From assembly GCA_004298155.1 (NCBI GenBank), contig SCRD01000019.1, positions 1 through 64,000 on the forward strand: a stretch of DNA of 64,000 bases. The letters are read 5' to 3'. Shown piece by piece: positions 2 to 43,815 of this stretch. Each line of letters begins with the position of its first letter. Within the stretch, counting starts at the first letter, position 1. Under the pieces are notes generated by a model. That model searched no databases. It was not told the DNA's origin and was given only the letters and a program-made list of their open reading frames with translations. This DNA is from Acidobacteriota bacterium. Its GTDB lineage: Bacteria > Acidobacteriota > Terriglobia > UBA7540. A program made the translations under genes and the position numbers.

Positions 2-2506
2 GGCCATCCGCTCAAGCCGGGCCAGATGCTCGATCTGGCCATCGAGATGGCCGACGCGCTCGATGCCGCGCACCAGAAAGGCATCATCCATCGCGACATC
101 AAGCCGGCCAATATTTTTGTAACGACGCGAGGCCAGGCCAAGATTCTGGATTTCGGTCTGGCCAAACTAATGCCCTCCATTTCTTCCCAACCCTCGCCCT
201 CCGGGAGAGGGCGGTCCCGCGAGGGACCGGGTGAGGGGCTGGCCGACGCTCCCACGGCCACCTTCGACCGTGAGAACCTCACCAGCCCGGGGGCGACGGT
301 TGGGACGGTGGCTTACATGAGCCCCGAGCAGGCGCGCGGAGAAGCGCTTGATGCGCGGACCGATCTCTTCAGCTTTGGCGCGGTGCTTTATGAAATGGCG
401 ACGGGCCGCCAGGCGTTCAGCGGGGAAACGACGGCGGTGATCTTTCACAAGCTCCTTGGTGATGATCCTGCGCCGGCCACGAGCATCAATCCCGGTCTGC
501 CGTCTGAGCTCGACCGAATCGTCGCCAAGTGCCTGGAGAAAGACCGCGATCTGCGTTATCAGCACGCGTCGGAAATCCGGGCCGACCTCAAGCGCCTGAA
601 GCGCGACGCGGGGTCCGGGCGTGGCACGGCCGTCCCAGCCGTGCCCTCCGTAGCACACGGGCAGGCCCACCCTGAGCGAAGCGAACAGGATGCCCGAGCC
701 ACGTTCCCGGCCATTGCCACGGGCGAGACGCCCGTGCCACAGGGCGCTCCCACGGCCGGCCACATCAGCTCCGATTCGCAGATGGTCGCGGCACTGGTCA
801 AACGCCACAAGCAGACCCTATTTGGCGGCCTGGCAGTGGTTGTTGTGATAGCTGCGGCGCTGGTTTACTGGCTCAGGCCGCTTCTTCCGCCGCCAACGGT
901 TTCGGGCTATCTGCAGCTCACTAGTGATGCGGCCTCCAAGTCTTTGTATGGCACGGACGGCTCACGCCTATATTTAGTTGAGGATTCCATTGGCGCTGCG
1001 CAGATGTCGGTGAGCGGAGGGAGCCTGGCACCAATCCCCAGACCTCCCGGCCTGGAGGGTATGCTGGGGATCGAGAGCGTTTCTCCGGATGGATCCAAAC
1101 TGCTCGCTCGGCAGATGAGCGGGCTGAGTGGTGCACCCACGCCGCTGTGGGCCGTTCCGACCATGGGAGGCTCGCCCGTTCGGCTGGCGGACATTCAGGG
1201 CTCCGATGGTGCGTGGTCGCCCGACGGCCAGAAGTTGGTTTACACAAGCGACAACGCCCTTTACATTTCGAATTCGGACGGCAGCGCCTCCCGCAAGCTG
1301 GCGGACCTTCCGGGTCCGGGTGCAGGCGGGATGCGAGGCGGCACCTCGCCTGTCTGGTCGCCCGACGGACAGGAAATTGCCTTGAACCGCCTGGACTCCA
1401 GGAATACCAGCCATCTTTGGGAGCTTTCTGCGGACGGCAGGAATCTGCATGAAATGTTTCCAGGCTGGCACGTGCAGGCCGGCGAATGCTGCGGCCAGTG
1501 GATGCCGGACGGTAATTATTTTGTCTTGCAGTCTCAAGGCCAGATCTGGGCGGCGCGGCGGACCAGTAGTTTACTGCACAAGGTGAACCGCCAACCCGTG
1601 CAAATCACCGCCGGGACCGTTTCTTACAATTATCCCGTTCCCAGTAAAGACGGCAAGACGCTTTTCGCCGTTGCTGGATTCCGGCGTGGTGAGCTTGAAC
1701 GTTACGACGCCAAAACGAAAGCCTTCGAGCCCTTTCTGGGCGGCATCTCAGCGCAAGACGTTTCCTTCTCACAAGATGGCCAATGGATTGCTTACGTTAC
1801 TTATCCCGAAGGCGTCCTCTGGCGAAGCAAATTGGATGGCAGCGATAAGCTCCAGCTCAACTCGCTGCCGGTTTATGCCATGCTGCCGGAATGGTCGCCG
1901 GACGGAAAACAAATTGTGTTTCACGCCCTCCAGCGCGGCAAGCCCGCCCGCATTTATGAAGTTCCGGCTGCGGGCGGAGCGACGCAGGAATTGATGCCCA
2001 GCCAACCCGGAAATCAGACCGACGCCTCATGGTCGCCGGATGGCGGTCGGCTGGTTTTTAGCGGCGTAGCGAACGCCGGCCCGACCCCGATTCACATCCT
2101 GGATATGAAAGCGCGCCAAATCACCACCCTCCCGAATTCCAACGGGCTGTTTTCTCCCCGCTGGTCGCCCGATGGCCGATACCTCGTCGCCCTGCCTTCG
2201 GATTCGAGCGGTCTCAGGCTCTTTGATTTCAACACACAAAAATGGTCGGTGCTGGTAAAGGAAATTGTCAGCTACCCGTGCTGGTCGCATGACGGGCGCT
2301 TTGTCTATTTCACGCTTTTCACTGGAAAAGGGGTAGAGCGCGTCGCCGTTCCCGGCGGCAAAGTAGAGCACGTTGCGAGCTTGAACGGAATCCGTCAAAC
2401 AGGCGTTTACAGCCATTGGCTCGGACTCACGCCGGATGGCTCGCTGCTGATCCTCAAGGACGCCGGCAGCCAGGAAATTGTCAGCATGGCCTGGCACGAG
2501 CCGTAA
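2..2506 (+). CDS. Ser/Thr protein kinase with TolB/PD40 propeller (5' end outside window)
   Basis: Receptor-type Hanks kinase. The reading frame is open at the left edge, so the N-lobe (glycine loop and VAIK lysine) lies outside the window. Visible in order: HRDIKPANI catalytic loop, DFG, an activation segment ending in MSPEQARG (APE motif), the kinase C-lobe, a low-complexity linker, one membrane helix near bases 815-875, then about 540 residues of SPDG-type PD40/TolB blades forming a predicted periplasmic propeller. The kinase half is nearly identical to that of the next gene, while the propeller differs. The activation segment carries an in-frame palindromic repeat at 191-238, and the linker holds more repeat-derived sequence (about 610-765). 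Ligand and substrates cannot be told from the sequence. Confidence 0.93.
191..238 (+). repeat. In-frame REP-like palindromic repeat, copy 1
   Basis: A 48-base element inside the kinase activation segment. It contains two adjacent hairpins: CGCCCTC/GAGGGCG with a 5-base loop, and GGTCCC/GGGACC with loop GCGA. It is flanked by CCCTC and GAGGGG arms. Translated, it gives an [13 protein letters not shown]-type stretch unlike kinase sequence. A copy with a single base difference lies at 3109-3156. Confidence 0.8.
612..765 (+). repeat. Repeat-derived linker of kinase 1
   Basis: The segment between the kinase C-lobe and the membrane helix contains several palindromes that are kept in frame: GGCACGGC/GCCGTGCC near 622-644 and CACGGGCG/CGCCCGTG near 718-738. 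The 16-base string CCCTGAGCGAAGCGAA at 670-685 occurs as its reverse complement in the same linker of kinase 2 (3591-3606). This fits insertion of dispersed repeats into a tolerant linker. Confidence 0.65.
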
Positions 2507-2588
2507 GCCATCTCGGATTTTAAATTGCCGAAGGCCGCGAGCGGCAAATGCGCTGAACTTCCCGCAACCTGCTCGCCCGCAGCACGCG

Positions 2589-2626
2589 AGTCGAGCCATG
2601 TGGTGCTGATCAGAAACTTTCAGTGA
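2589..2626 (+). pseudogene. Fossil 3' end of a lost kinase gene
   Basis: These 38 bases match the last 38 bases of kinase 2 (5465-5502) at 34 positions. They read as [11 protein letters not shown]-stop, against [11 protein letters not shown]-stop at the end of kinase 2. The stop TGA at 2624-2626 overlaps the ATG at 2626 as TGATG. The simplest reading is a former tandem kinase whose body was deleted, leaving its stop fused to the start of the next gene. Confidence 0.65.
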
Positions 2627-5502
2627 TGAAGGAAAAGGTGTCCCATTATCGGATTCTCGACGAGCTCGGTGGCGGGGGGATGGGTGTCGTTTATAAAGCG
2701 GAGGACACCACACTGGGCCGGTTTGTGGCGCTGAAATTTCTGCCCGAAGAATTCTCAAAGGATCCCCAGAAACTCGAACGCTTCCAGCGCGAAGCTCGCG
2801 CTGCCGCAGCGCTGAATCATCCCAACATCTGCACCATTTACGAAATCGGCGAGCACGAAGGCCAGCCGTTCATTGCCATGGAGTTGCTGGAAGGCGCGAC
2901 GCTGAAGCATCGCATCGAGGGCCATCCGATCAAGCCGGGCCAGATGCTCGACCTGGCCATCGAGATGGCCGACGCGCTCGATGCCGCGCACCAGAAAGGC
3001 ATCATTCATCGCGACATCAAACCCGCGAATATTTTTGTGACCAGCCGAGGCCAGGCCAAGATTCTGGATTTCGGTCTGGCCAAACTAATGCCCTCCATTT
3101 CTTCCCAACCCTCGCCCTCCGGGAGAGGGCGGTCCCGCGATGGACCGGGTGAGGGGCTGGCCGACGCTCCCACGGCCACCTTCGACCGTGAGAACCTCAC
3201 CAGTCCGGGGGCGACGGTGGGCACGGTAGCTTACATGAGCCCGGAGCAGGCGCGGGGCGAAGCGCTCGATGCGCGGACCGATCTGTTCAGCTTCGGCGCG
3301 GTGCTCTATGAGATGGCCACGGGCCGCCAGGCGTTCAGCGGGGAAACCACGGCGGTGATCTTTCACAAAATTCTTGGTGATGATCCTGCACCAGTCACGA
3401 GTATCAATGCGGACCTGCCGCCTGAACTCGACCGCATCATCACCAAGTGCCTGGAGAAAGACCGCGAACTTCGCTATCAGCACGCATCGGAAATTCGCAC
3501 GGACCTCAAGCGCCTGAAGCGCGACGCGGGGTCCGGGCGTGGCACGGCCGTCCCGGCCGTGGCTTCCGTAGAGCAGGGGCAGACCGACCCTTCGCTTCGC
3601 TCAGGGGAAGCTCTGAAGGTTGGCGCTACGTCTGCCGTAGAGGCGGGTTTATCCCGCCATGATGAAAATGGCAGCGCAAAGCCGCCGCTACAGGGCAGCG
3701 CCTCCGACATCGAGCACGGCAGCTCCGACTCGCAAATCATTGCCGACCTCGCCCGACGCCATAAGAAGGGCCTGCTGGCAGGCCTTGCTGCTGCAATCAT
3801 CCTGGGCGCTGTCGCCGTCTGGTTTTTCGTCTATTCTCGCAAGCCGACGGAGACCTTCCACGTCGGGGAAATCGAGCGGCTGACGAATTTCGGCGACGTA
3901 CAAACTGCCGCCATTTCGCCCGACGGCCGCTACGTTGCCTATGTGCGCGGCGCGCCGGGCGGGCAGAGCATCTGGCTGCGCCAGACGGCAACGGGCAGCG
4001 ACGCTCCGATTCTTCCCACGGCGCCGGCCAAATACTCGGGCCTGGCCTTCACACCGGATGGGAACTTCATCTACTACGTCTCCGGCGTGGTTGGAACATC
4101 CTCAGACGATCTCTATCGCATTCCGTCGCTGGGCGGCAACTCCAGGAAGGTCGTCGAGGATGTCGGCGGCAGGGTTGCCGTTTCCCCCGATGGAGAGCAA
4201 ATAGCGTTTGTGCGCTGGAATCCGGCAACTGGTGAAACTGCCCTGGTTGTGGCAAACTCCGACGGCAGCGGCCAGCGTCCAATCGCCTCCAGAAAGCTTC
4301 CACAGGAAGAGCTCACTCCTGACCCGGCATGGTCCCCCGACGGGAAGGTGATTGCGCTGTCTGATGAGTCCTACGTCGGCGCCTACGCTCGTTCTATCAT
4401 TGCCATGACGCCCACGGGAGACCATCAGAGAGTGGTAGCGCGTACTGACCTCTGGCTGCTGTCCCTGGTTTGGCTCCCGGACGGCAGCGGACTTATCCTG
4501 GCCGCCGGGAACCAAAGCCAGATGCTCCAGTCGCAGCTCTGGCAGGTTTCGTATCCTTCCGGAGCCATGCGCCAGGTCACGCGCGACTTGAACTCTTACC
4601 TGATGCCGACACTGACGGCGAACGGAAAAGCCCTGAGTGTCGTTCAATCGCAACTGGACTCTAATCTCTGGATTGCGCCCAAGGGCAATTCGGGGGATGC
4701 GCGGCAGATTACTTCGACCGCCGAGGGCACCGAAGGGTTGAGCGCGATGGATTGGCCGCCGGGCAACCAGATTTTTTACTCCTCGGGGGATAGCGGCCCG
4801 ATCGCAGCCTGGAGCATGAACACGGACGGCAGCCACCGGGAAAACATCACCAATCCTAAAGACGCCACCGACGCGGATTTTTCCGCCTGCCCTGCCGGGC
4901 AATACCTTGTCTTCGATTCGGACCGCCAGGGCGGGGTGAATCTTTGGCGAATCAATCGCGACGGCACAGACCTTACGCACTTGACCCATGGCAGCTATGA
5001 GGAATTGCCCTCTTGCTCGCCCGATGGCAAGTGGGTCATTTTTACTTCACGCGGCCCCGGCGGCCCCAAACTTTGGAGCGTTTCCATCCAGGGCGGACAA
5101 GGCAAAAAGATAAGTGACCAGACTTGCGAGGGCCCCTCGGTCTCCCCCGATGGCAAATGGATCGCGTGTGTCGCGCCGGAAGCCGGCCAGCCGGAGATTG
5201 CGGTGGTGCCCTTCACCGGCGGGCCCGCGGCCAGGAAGTTCCCGGTACTCGAGGGCGTTCGACTACTGCACTCGGACACGAAAATCCAATGGACTCCCGA
5301 CAGCCGCGGCATCGCTTACGTCAAGACAGAGAACGGCGTGTCAAACATCTGGACGCAGCCGCTTGCGGGCGGCCCGCCAAAACAAGTGACTCATTTCACC
5401 TCCGGCAATCTCTTCAATTTTGCCTGGTCGCCCGAGGGCGACCTGGCGCTGGCCCGCGGCACCCAGTCGAGCGACGTGGTGCTGATCAGGAACTTACAGT
5501 GA
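2626..5502 (+). CDS. Ser/Thr protein kinase with TolB/PD40 propeller sensor
   Basis: Complete 958-residue receptor kinase. Seen: glycine loop [13 protein letters not shown] lysine K37 (VALKFL), catalytic D130 in [12 protein letters not shown] at D148, and APE as MSPEQ, so all residues needed for activity are present (RD type). A membrane helix follows at about residues 382-403, then SPDG-rich PD40 blades predicted to be periplasmic. ATG 2626 is preferred over the GTG one codon upstream, because the ATG forms a TGATG junction with the fossil stop. An in-frame palindromic repeat lies at about residues 162-177, and the linker at about 300-370 is built of repeat sequence. It phosphorylates unknown targets in response to an unknown envelope signal. 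Confidence 0.93.
3109..3156 (+). repeat. In-frame REP-like palindromic repeat, copy 2
   Basis: Same element as 191-238, at the same place between DFG and APE. One base change (GAG to GAT) shortens the second hairpin. Flanking coding sequence is also nearly identical to kinase 1, so this copy arose by duplication or gene conversion, not by independent insertion. Confidence 0.8.
3535..3700 (+). repeat. Repeat-derived linker of kinase 2
   Basis: This linker starts with the same GGCACGGCCG palindrome as kinase 1 and then diverges. It contains TTCGCTTCGCTCAGGG (3591-3606), which is inverted relative to kinase 1. It also has a unit running from GTAGAGGCGG to GCCGCCGCTAC at 3637-3691, whose ends match the palindromic element upstream of the GH20 gene (11293-11363). 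Confidence 0.65.
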
Positions 5503-11391: not shown

Positions 11392-11627
11392 GGACAGTGC
11401 CTTCCGGGTTGAGGGAAGGGAATACAGGCCAGTTGTGACAGGCGCGCGGAAATTTGAAGTGTATTGACCCCGCGAAGTGATTGTCAAGCTGCGCCTCGCC
11501 AGATTCCAGCGCAGGAAACATGTAAAGGCCTCAGGCGGCTGCGCTCCTTGGAAGACAAGCGGTTGGGTCGGTGAATAGCTGACAGAGGAAGTCGAGTGAA
11601 TGGCAAAACAGGCTAGCGATGCTGCAT
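11392..11627. other. Intergenic, no gene recognised
   Basis: Sequence between the palindromic element and the repeat array. No start with a ribosome site and no coding pattern was seen on either strand. Confidence 0.4.
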
Positions 11628-11885
11628 TCATTTACCTGGACTCGTTCTGGTTCGTTTTTTCAGCTGCCCTGTATTTTCAATGACATGGCCAGCTTCGTTT
11701 CCGGTTCGTTTTTTCAGCCCTCTAGTGTTTTCAACAACTTCCCCGCTTCGTTTTCCGGTTCGTTCCGGTTCGTTTTTTGGACCCGATCCTGTGTTTTCAA
11801 CAACTTCTCCGGTTCGTTTTTCAAAAAACGAATTTTTTTGTCCCATTCGTCTCATTTGTCCCGGAAAATCGCCCCTCGCAGGCAC
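11628..11885 (-). repeat. EVVEN/KNEP repeat array, copy A
   Basis: On the minus strand, units of the form AAAAACGAACCGGAA... alternate with GAAGTTGTTGAAAACA. Units recur after 66 and then 54 bases, both multiples of three. One frame stays open for 85 codons and reads EVVEN and KNEPER-like motifs. The outer edge carries a palindrome TTCGTTTTT/AAAAAACGAA (11813-11832). A homologous array lies at 41998-42255 on the other strand. It may be a dispersed non-coding repeat or a low-complexity small gene; the substitution pattern favours the former. Confidence 0.7.
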
Positions 11886-12084
11886 TGGAAGAAGACTACC
11901 ACGCTAGGCCAGAGGAGTCAAGGAAAATCGGCGCCGATGTCGCTGCAAAGTGAGAAGTTCCGGTATGAGCAAAGTAGGAAGTTCCGATGGTCGCGGTTGG
12001 CGCATATATTCCGAACTATAGAATGTATGCGACGGGTTGGCTCAATAGAGGAGTGATTTTTGTGGTGAGAACCCTTCACACTAC

Positions 12085-41635: not shown

Positions 41636-41997
41636 GATATCTCCTCCTTATCCTAAGGCGAAACAAAGCACCGCCTACGGTTTTTTTGCGCGACGATTCT
41701 ATCGCAAATGCAGGTCTGGCTCAATCCGGCCCGTGGTGGAATTTGCTTGACACACCTACGCTACCGTGCTAGCCTTCCAGCTGGTGTAAAGGGCCGGCAT
41801 TGAGAGCTGGTTTCTACGTTCTCAGAATTCTGCGAATGAATGAATGCGGTGTGGGAGGGGCACAGCCGTGGAATATCTTCCGCGCCAAATTGCCGATAGC
41901 AGAGAGGCCCGCAACCTGTGCTGATGTCATCGGGAATAACCAGTCTTGGTGGACTCATTATGTTGTCATAAGCTATTGAAAAGATGGGTCAAAGAGT
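41636..41997. other. Intergenic, no gene recognised
   Basis: About 360 bases between the PDZ gene start and the repeat array. A 65-codon minus-strand frame exists but has no support. Confidence 0.4.
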
Positions 41998-42255
41998 TTG
42001 GCACTAAAATTGTGTGGGACAGAAAACGCGTTTTTTAAAAAACGAACCGAAGAAGTTGTTGAAAACAAAGGATCGCAGCTAAAAAACGAACCGGAACGAA
42101 TCGGAAAACGAAGCGGAGAAGTTGTTGAAAACACGTTCCAGCTGGAAAAACGAACCGGAAACGAACCTGCCGATCTTGCTGAAAATGAAGAGCCGCGAAA
42201 TAGCGAACCGGAGAGAATCCTGACAGCCTTTAGAACCCTTTCATGCCGCCTCTGA
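41998..42255 (+). repeat. EVVEN/KNEP repeat array, copy B
   Basis: Homologous to the array at 11628-11885 and in the opposite orientation. GAAGTTGTTGAAAACA occurs at 42052-42067 and 42118-42133, with a degenerate copy at 42172-42187. It alternates with AAAAACGAACCGGAA-type strings. A perfect 16-base palindrome CGTTTTTTAAAAAACG lies at 42029-42044. The two arrays align without gaps over about 55 codons. Most differences would change the amino acid, which argues against a conserved protein. Confidence 0.7.
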
Positions 42256-42366
42256 GAAGCTGGAAGACCCCCCGCCGGCCTCGCCCTGGCACATCTGCTG
42301 CTCCTGATATAATGGCTGCAGAAATTGACTCACCCAACACGCTTTTGCGCTCGCGGAGAAACGCCC

Positions 42367-43815
42367 TTGCGGCTTGAGAAACACCATCTCGAAAAGCTCG
42401 ACCGCTACCGCTGGCTGGTCCCGCGCGGAGCCAAGGCTGGCATGCTGACCGACGCTCTGATCTATGCAGACGAACATCTGCTGGAAGACCTGCTGAAAGA
42501 CCTGTCGCTTGAGCAGGCCATAAACGTCGCGATGCTGCCCGGCATTGTGGGCCGGTCGCTCGCCATGCCTGACATCCATCAGGGCTACGGATTTCCAATT
42601 GGCGGCGTGGCAGCCACCGACCCCAATGAAGGTGGCGTGGTGTCGCCGGGCGGCGTGGGCTTTGACATCAACTGCGGCGTGCGCCTGCTGGCCAGCACGC
42701 TTACGATAGAGGATGTGCGGCCGAAAATCCGCGAGCTGGTGAATCAGCTTTTCCGCGATATTCCTTCGGGCGCGGGCCGCAAAGGTTCCGTCCAGCTTTC
42801 TTATCAGGACCTGGAGCGAGTGATGGTGGAGGGAGCCGGCTGGATGGCCCGGAACGGATACGGAGAGCCCGCCGATCTGGAACACTGCGAGGAGAACGGA
42901 GCCATCGATGGCGCCGATCCTGCGGCCGTGGGTGACAGGCCCCGACAGCGCGGCCTTGCGCAGGTGGGCACGCTCGGGTCCGGCAATCACTTCCTGGAAG
43001 TGCAATACGTGGAGCGCGTCTTTGAGCCGGAAATCGCCCAGCGGTTAGGACTTTATGAAAATGAGGTCGTGGTGCTGGTCCACTCCGGCTCGCGCGGCTT
43101 CGGACACCAGGTCTGTACGGATTACTTGCGTGACATGGACGCGGCCATGCGCCGCTATAAGCTCGCACTGCCGGACCGCCAGCTTGCCTGCGTGCCTGTC
43201 ACTTCGTCCGAGGGCCAGGCGTATCTGGGGGCCATGCGCGCCGCGGCCAACTTTGCCTGGGCCAACCGCCAGGGCATTACGCATTTCACCCGCGAAGCCT
43301 TCAGGCGCATCTTCGGGCAAAAGGAAATGCTGCGCGTGGTCTATGACGTCTGCCACAACATTGCCAAGCTGGAACGGCATCGCGTGAATGGGCGCGACCG
43401 CCAGGTGCTGGTGCATCGCAAGGGAGCGACGCGCGCGTTCCCGGCGGGCCGGCCGGAAGTTCCCGCAGCCTACAAGGACATCGGCCAGCCGGTGCTGATT
43501 CCGGGCTCGATGGGCACGGCATCGTACGTTCTGGTGGGAGCGAAAGGCTCGCTCGAAGAAACTTTTGGGACCACCTGCCACGGCGCCGGGCGCCTGATGA
43601 GCCGCACCGCCGCCAAAAAATCTTCCTACGCCGCGAATGCCAGGCAGCGCCTGGAAGAGCAGGGAATTATTGTGCGCTCGGAAACGCGCGACGGCATCTC
43701 AGAGGAAATTCCGGAAGCCTATAAAGACGTGGACGCCGTCATCAACGTGGTCCACAACGCCGGGCTCTCCAAACGCGTCGCACGCCTGAAACCGATGGGG
43801 GTGATCAAAGGGTGA
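42367..43815 (+). CDS. rtcB: RNA-splicing ligase RtcB
   Basis: About 482 residues. Motifs DIHQGYGFPIGG, GGVGFDINCGVRL (metal-binding Asp/Cys), GTLGSGNHFLEV, VHSGSRGFGHQV, and the guanylated-histidine region TCHGAGRLMSR are all intact. RtcB joins 2',3'-cyclic phosphate or 3'-phosphate ends to 5'-OH ends with GTP and Mn. TTG 42367 (GGAG nine bases upstream; reads LRLEKHHLEKLDRYRW) fits the family N-terminus better than a TTG at 42325. It lacks an adjacent archease or RtcA gene. Confidence 0.96.
   Translation: MRLEKHHLEKLDRYRWLVPRGAKAGMLTDALIYADEHLLEDLLKDLSLEQAINVAMLPGIVGRSLAMPDIHQGYGFPIGGVAATDPNEGGVVSPGGVGFDINCGVRLLASTLTIEDVRPKIRELVNQLFRDIPSGAGRKGSVQLSYQDLERVMVEGAGWMARNGYGEPADLEHCEENGAIDGADPAAVGDRPRQRGLAQVGTLGSGNHFLEVQYVERVFEPEIAQRLGLYENEVVVLVHSGSRGFGHQVCTDYLRDMDAAMRRYKLALPDRQLACVPVTSSEGQAYLGAMRAAANFAWANRQGITHFTREAFRRIFGQKEMLRVVYDVCHNIAKLERHRVNGRDRQVLVHRKGATRAFPAGRPEVPAAYKDIGQPVLIPGSMGTASYVLVGAKGSLEETFGTTCHGAGRLMSRTAAKKSSYAANARQRLEEQGIIVRSETRDGISEEIPEAYKDVDAVINVVHNAGLSKRVARLKPMGVIKG

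Follow-up and report, generated by a model that had tools for sequence, protein, structure and literature searches.

A dispersed family of promoter-linked noncoding repeat arrays in an Acidobacteriota genome

The Acidobacteriota genome that contains the window (G000), the 64,000-nt stretch of DNA analysed here, carries about 39 copies of a noncoding repeat array (41 match rows in a whole-genome search), spread over many contigs and present in both orientations. Most copies are preceded on their own strand by a sigma-70-like promoter box. The arrays keep their positions within the genus, lack RNA structure and change in sequence together. As the leading reading, we tentatively favour a noncoding RNA family that offers a linear binding motif to a trans-acting factor, a reading that overlaps with the alternatives weighed below.

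Two of the arrays, W42 near 42 kb and W11 near 11.8 kb, are located in the window. In W42, on the plus strand, the promoter-like box (41747–41775, TTGACACACCTACGCTACCGTGCTAGCCT) combines the -35 element TTGACA with the extended -10 element TGCTAGCCT and a dyad, GCTA-N6-TAGC. The following leader (41776–42029) is largely unconserved; its conserved part comprises a small hairpin-like stretch and unit 0 at about 41940–41984, and GTGTGGGACA is found near 42012. The repeat array itself (42030–42215) is built from AACGAA[CG]C[GT] direct repeats and three GTTRTTGAAAAYA core units, located at 42055–42067, 42121–42133 and 42175–42187, the third being degenerate. The next gene on the 3' side is rtcB, encoding an RNA ligase, which shares the strand of the array (42325–43815, plus strand). 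W11 is placed on the minus strand, with the box at 11893–11921 (TTGACTCCTCTGGCCTAGCGTGGTAGTCT), GGGACAAATGAGACGAATGGGAC leader repeats at 11840–11864 and the array at 11645–11840, with cores at 11792–11804, 11726–11738 and about 11672–11684. A CTAGCC mark common to most short-leader copies lies 3' of the W11 array, at 11611–11616. The strict promoter pattern has exactly two matches in the window, at 41747 (plus strand) and 11893 (minus strand), and each precedes an array. Two serine/threonine kinases that carry WD40-like PD40 repeats lie side by side at positions 26–5502 and have no relation to the arrays.

An earlier note on this DNA had described a gap-free alignment of the two window copies over about 55 codons, with few silent and mostly residue-changing differences. 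Both observations hold. Segments 41998–42255 (plus strand) and 11628–11885 (minus strand) align over 176 bases without gaps (E 6.7e-51), and the 55 codons of the shared frame contain 4.7 silent and 24.3 replacement differences. The Nei-Gojobori method gives dN 0.224 and dS 0.129 for the pair, a dN/dS of 1.7, in agreement with the note's view that protein constraint is absent. Its statement that the frame is kept proved to be an accident of these two copies. Among all copies, the spacing from the first core unit to the second is 65 or 66 bases and the next is 53–66, not always a multiple of three, and the array frame is broken by a stop in 28 of the 35 testable copies. Because the spacing shifts by single bases and stops are this frequent, the frame shared by W42 and W11 is accidental. 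An 85-aa open frame is present in both window copies and could be taken for a small protein gene or its remnant. Given the dN/dS (1.73 for the W42 frame, 41998–42255, plus strand), the spacing and the stops, we regard this frame as a non-gene and give the protein reading next to no probability. Leader peptides starting from a TTG inside each unit were rejected as well, since stops, judged by eye, are inconsistent among copies. In the absence of protein constraint, any function should lie at the DNA or RNA level.

The G000 copies match W42 with 74–88% identity over roughly 60–215 matched bases and sit between genes predicted by a simple gene finder. Along the array strand, a typical copy starts with the promoter-like box, followed by a leader of about 80–350 bases that varies in size and sequence, then TTCGTTTTTTGAAAAACGAA or a weaker form of it, and then the core units. 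Many leaders contain GGGACAAATGAGACGAATGGGAC; others contain a small hairpin-like stretch, an extra core unit and TTGTGTGGGACAAAA. The A-rich arrays are direct repeats of two short motifs, of the AACGAACCGG and GTTRTTGAAAAYA types, with two to four GTTRTTGAAAAYA core units spaced by AACGAA[CG]C[GT] repeats. In most short-leader copies, CTAGCC lies about 60 bases past the last unit; the mark is present in 42 of 68 copies of all kinds, compared with 13.5% in shuffles.

Some copies form subfamilies that share additional flanks, namely the L059 group and the pair of W11 and L077. The likeness between W11 (window 11638–11845) and L077 (G000:C19:149673) runs roughly 100 bases past the 3' mark, which suggests a fairly recent duplication that would have included the flanks. 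A second dispersed element, made of REP-like hairpins (CCACGGTCAGTGCTTTTCTGACCGTGG, CCACGGACAGGAAAGCGTTGTCCGTGG), is situated directly 5' of the promoter box in a subgroup of copies (L059, L064, L069, L081, L084, L086 and L087). A lone core motif, GTTATTGAAAACA, was found at L204 (G000:C21:251) between what appear by eye to be the C-terminus of a tyrosine integrase and the 3' end of a tRNA, an apparent attachment site. Arrays occupy the ends of G000 contigs (C13:1, C15:6, C18:392556 and C22:27032) and of several G001 contigs, which indicates that they break assemblies; near-identical array pairs at contig ends may be assembly-limited.

The strict box is defined as TTGAC-N15/16-TGnTAGnCT, also written with the extended -10 TGnTAGYCT. 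It has a spacing of 17–18 bases, is of the extended -10 type and is always aimed at the array. It lies upstream of the array, on the same strand, in 29 of 36 testable G000 copies, and in two genomes of the same genus in 13 of 14 (G001) and 13 of 16 (G002); no strict box was found on the opposite strand or downstream of the arrays in any of the three. Four of the seven misses in G000 are accounted for by near-matches, and several copies have no recognisable promoter (L065, L074, L076). In G014, which belongs to another genus, 5 of 15 copies have the strict box. A slightly narrower pattern gives 32 matches in the G000 genome against 0 in the control, all but about three of them at arrays. Boxes without an array are seen at L198 (G000:C10:38950), L199 (G000:C1:80271) and L200 (G000:C25:75605), and at the first of these an open frame starts about 200 bases 3' of the box. 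A dyad, GGCTA-N6-TAGCC or the rarer variant GCTA-N6-TAGC, covers the -10 element and could be an operator.

Promoter and array are thus kept in order and orientation over variable intervening DNA, as would be expected of an array that is transcribed in its own right. We infer from this arrangement that the arrays are probably transcribed. Since the repeats are direct and share one direction with respect to the promoter, action as RNA is favoured over action as DNA. It is also conceivable that the arrays are sites on the DNA for a binding protein involved in nucleoid structure, looping or chromosome organisation, with the box as a second binding site. The dyad in the box, the missing RNA structure and the spacing of some AACGAA direct repeats by 10–12 bases, near one helical turn, are compatible with such sites. 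An extended -10 promoter match that is always aimed at the array would be needless for them, however, and we consider this explanation quite unlikely.

The arrays show no sign of folding. The mean folding z-score in 35 copies is -0.04 for the arrays and 0.24 for longer transcripts, fold energies thus equalling those of shuffles, and in 63 aligned copies RNAalifold gave no consensus structure (energy about 0) and no covariation was detected. A structured RNA was rejected on these grounds. Covariation had been proposed in the earlier note as a check for RNA structure, one of several functions it offered at the DNA or RNA level; that part of its proposal falls away, and protein binding is retained as the best guess. 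The array, if it acts at all, would act as a linear sequence. No Rfam covariance model matched at the cut-off, so a known Rfam family was discarded, and no intrinsic terminator was found 3' of 38 of the 39 arrays, a search restricted to the intrinsic type, which the host may not use. A discrete small RNA therefore lacks support.

The missing terminators would also suit a role of the arrays in cis, as 5' leaders or promoter modules that control whichever gene follows. In 25 of 37 cases this gene shares the orientation of the array, and many next genes are housekeeping genes. Those with Pfam matches are diverse (Lon, IMPDH, dihydropteroate synthase, biotin carboxylase, RuvC, SHMT, EF-G, MnmG, RtcB, fumarase and ThiI, among others), and the gene names among them include fusA, mnmG, rtcB, lon, guaB, glyA, folP and ruvC. 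The rtcB array, moreover, is kept in two genera. Against this, co-oriented genes are only marginally in excess (binomial p about 0.05), the next genes have no functional theme and the arrays no structure. The next gene is convergent in the remaining 12 of 37 cases, and such copies also occur at orthologous positions (L061, L072, L078, L081). Control of the downstream gene in cis is therefore an unlikely role for the arrays. Type III toxin-antitoxin systems consist of a repeat RNA followed by a toxin gene; this possibility was rejected because the next genes are mutually unrelated and mostly metabolic or housekeeping.

The positions of the arrays were compared at 34 same-genus loci with flanks (16 in G002 and 18 in G001), with neighbours judged from protein matches. 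Neighbours matching those of a G000 array flank about 13 of the 16 G002 loci and about 9 of the 18 G001 loci, and the array orientation is the same at every matched same-genus locus, including loci with a convergent next gene. G014 gave one clear positional match among 18 loci. The array upstream of rtcB is found in G014 and in G002 as well. No rtcB was found in G001, where the contig stops short of the rtcB end. The fusA array is common to G000 and G001, and the G002 contig ends at fusA; in five other genera (G003, G014, G016, G019, G041), the fusA loci yielded no array. Judged from these neighbours, arrays hold their positions within the genus, whereas from one genus to another most positions change.

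The same relatives bear on the suggestion, made in the earlier note, that the inverted pair in the window could mediate inversion of the 30 kb between W11 and W42. On G002 contig C116, the window is collinear from 22.5 kb to the W42 array, with the same orientation relative to the W42 ortholog. The stretch at 22.5–38.7 kb is likewise collinear on G001 contig C51, its orientation with respect to the W11 ortholog unchanged. No sign of inversion was seen in either genome; in neither of them does a single contig span the full segment together with the two arrays. The inversion was rejected, the segment being collinear in both relatives as far as it could be followed. With about 39 copies in the genome, an inverted pair within the window is expected by chance.

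At these conserved positions the array sequences do not follow their loci. Array identity averages 0.721 between orthologs and 0.728 between non-orthologs, with a weak locus signal kept in the leaders (0.60 vs 0.54) and 3' flanks (0.545 vs 0.50). The G000 motif AACGAACCG corresponds to AACGAACCC in most G002 loci. The third motif letter is C in 65 of 90 motif copies in G002 and in 1 of 231 in G000 (CCC/GCC), and CCGGA has become CCCGA or CCCAA in most G002 repeats. Nearly all repeats within one G002 element carry the motif change at once. In G001, the AACAAACCG form is present in half of the loci, with 58 of 133 motif copies compared with 6 of 231 in G000; some of the G001 copies are at the ends of contigs, and assembly may blur copies there. 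The W42 locus differs in array motif from its G002 ortholog, the array before rtcB, although the two share leader pieces and the rare promoter variant. Sequence comparison thus shows dispersed arrays that evolve in concert while their sites stay fixed. A shared trans-acting binder can account for it, as can gene conversion between copies, which could produce concerted change without any factor; the data fit both.

The concerted change of about 39 intergenic copies would also be compatible with a promoter-bearing, non-autonomous interspersed repeat of the Correia or BOX kind, which spread at an earlier time, now hardly moves and has no host function, its copies being homogenised by gene conversion or slow replicative spread. 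We regard this as a real possibility, short of our preferred one. Subfamilies with shared extra flanks (the L059 group, W11/L077), the turnover of positions between genera and the common CTAGCC mark at the 3' side of the arrays are consistent with such an origin, as are the sigma-70-like promoters of Correia elements (PMC10969869). Terminal inverted repeats are absent, however: a search of four elements returned chiefly internal TTCGTTTTTT/AAAAAACGAA pairs and no shared bounding pair, and the ends of the element could not be placed exactly. The conservation of promoter and array around 80–350 variable bases is unlike an element that moves as one block. Within the genus, the arrays keep their place and direction, and a G002 element changes in nearly all of its repeats together.

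Of 39 genomes of the family, roughly half are enriched in the core 13-mer (at least 8 sites, with 0 or 1 in the control), and several have no arrays. None of 296 other sampled genomes of the phylum has a comparable excess; the top count was 9, with 3 in the control. No array match was found in viral contigs or plasmids, and an origin from either was discarded for this reason. A search for published work on motif strings or Acidobacteria repeats returned nothing relevant.

In the RNA-family reading that we favour, each genome would contain a dispersed family of about 39 noncoding transcription units. A dedicated sigma-70-like promoter in most copies would drive an A-rich, unfolded array 80–350 bases downstream on the same strand, and the array RNA would serve as a sponge or binding platform by presenting several copies of a linear motif to a putative trans-acting factor. 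The shifting specificity of this factor, or homogenisation among copies, would change all arrays of a genome together. The pattern suggests that a partner molecule reads the arrays; we infer that this is a trans-acting factor and that it probably meets them as RNA rather than DNA. It is possible, if somewhat unlikely, that the family represents a lineage-specific, multi-locus class of noncoding RNA, in which dozens of orthologous promoter-driven loci with unstructured motifs co-evolve with one trans-acting binder as an undescribed titration or platform system.

Interspersed repeats are usually regarded as parasitic. In this family, the promoter and the array persist, in the same positions and orientation, as the array sequence drifts in step over dozens of loci. 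The arrays thus offer a natural experiment on how a binder and its sites co-evolve in bacteria, or on bacterial gene conversion, and they mark a possible regulator in a poorly studied phylum, with a motif that is easy to recognise.

To our knowledge, no family with such a promoter-leader-array architecture has been described. The sponge RNAs CsrB and RsmZ are noncoding and repeat a short motif many times, as binding sites for a single RNA-binding protein, with GGA in hairpin loops. Many copies of a short motif are present in the arrays as well, distributed here over about 39 loci, but conserved hairpins are absent and GGA is lost from most motif copies in G002; a CsrA-type GGA motif, not conserved in that genome, was rejected. 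REP and REPIN systems pair a short palindrome with a RAYT transposase encoded by the same genome; the arrays contain no palindromic unit. As a kind of interspersed promoter-bearing noncoding repeat, the arrays have their nearest known counterparts in BOX and Correia elements. The BOX elements of Streptococcus pneumoniae are interspersed intergenic repeats, several of which are transcribed, with low-rate movement and extensive secondary structure (PMC3049150). The arrays share the interspersed intergenic arrangement, but they fold like shuffles, show no covariation and lack the stable, conserved structure expected of a BOX-type repeat; the dedicated upstream promoter is a feature of the arrays. 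Correia elements in Neisseria are dispersed MITEs with terminal inverted repeats and sigma-70-like promoters, often found upstream of genes (PMC10969869). Many intergenic copies and a sigma-70-like promoter are common to both families. While the Correia promoters read into neighbouring genes, the predicted promoters described here read into a direct-repeat array.
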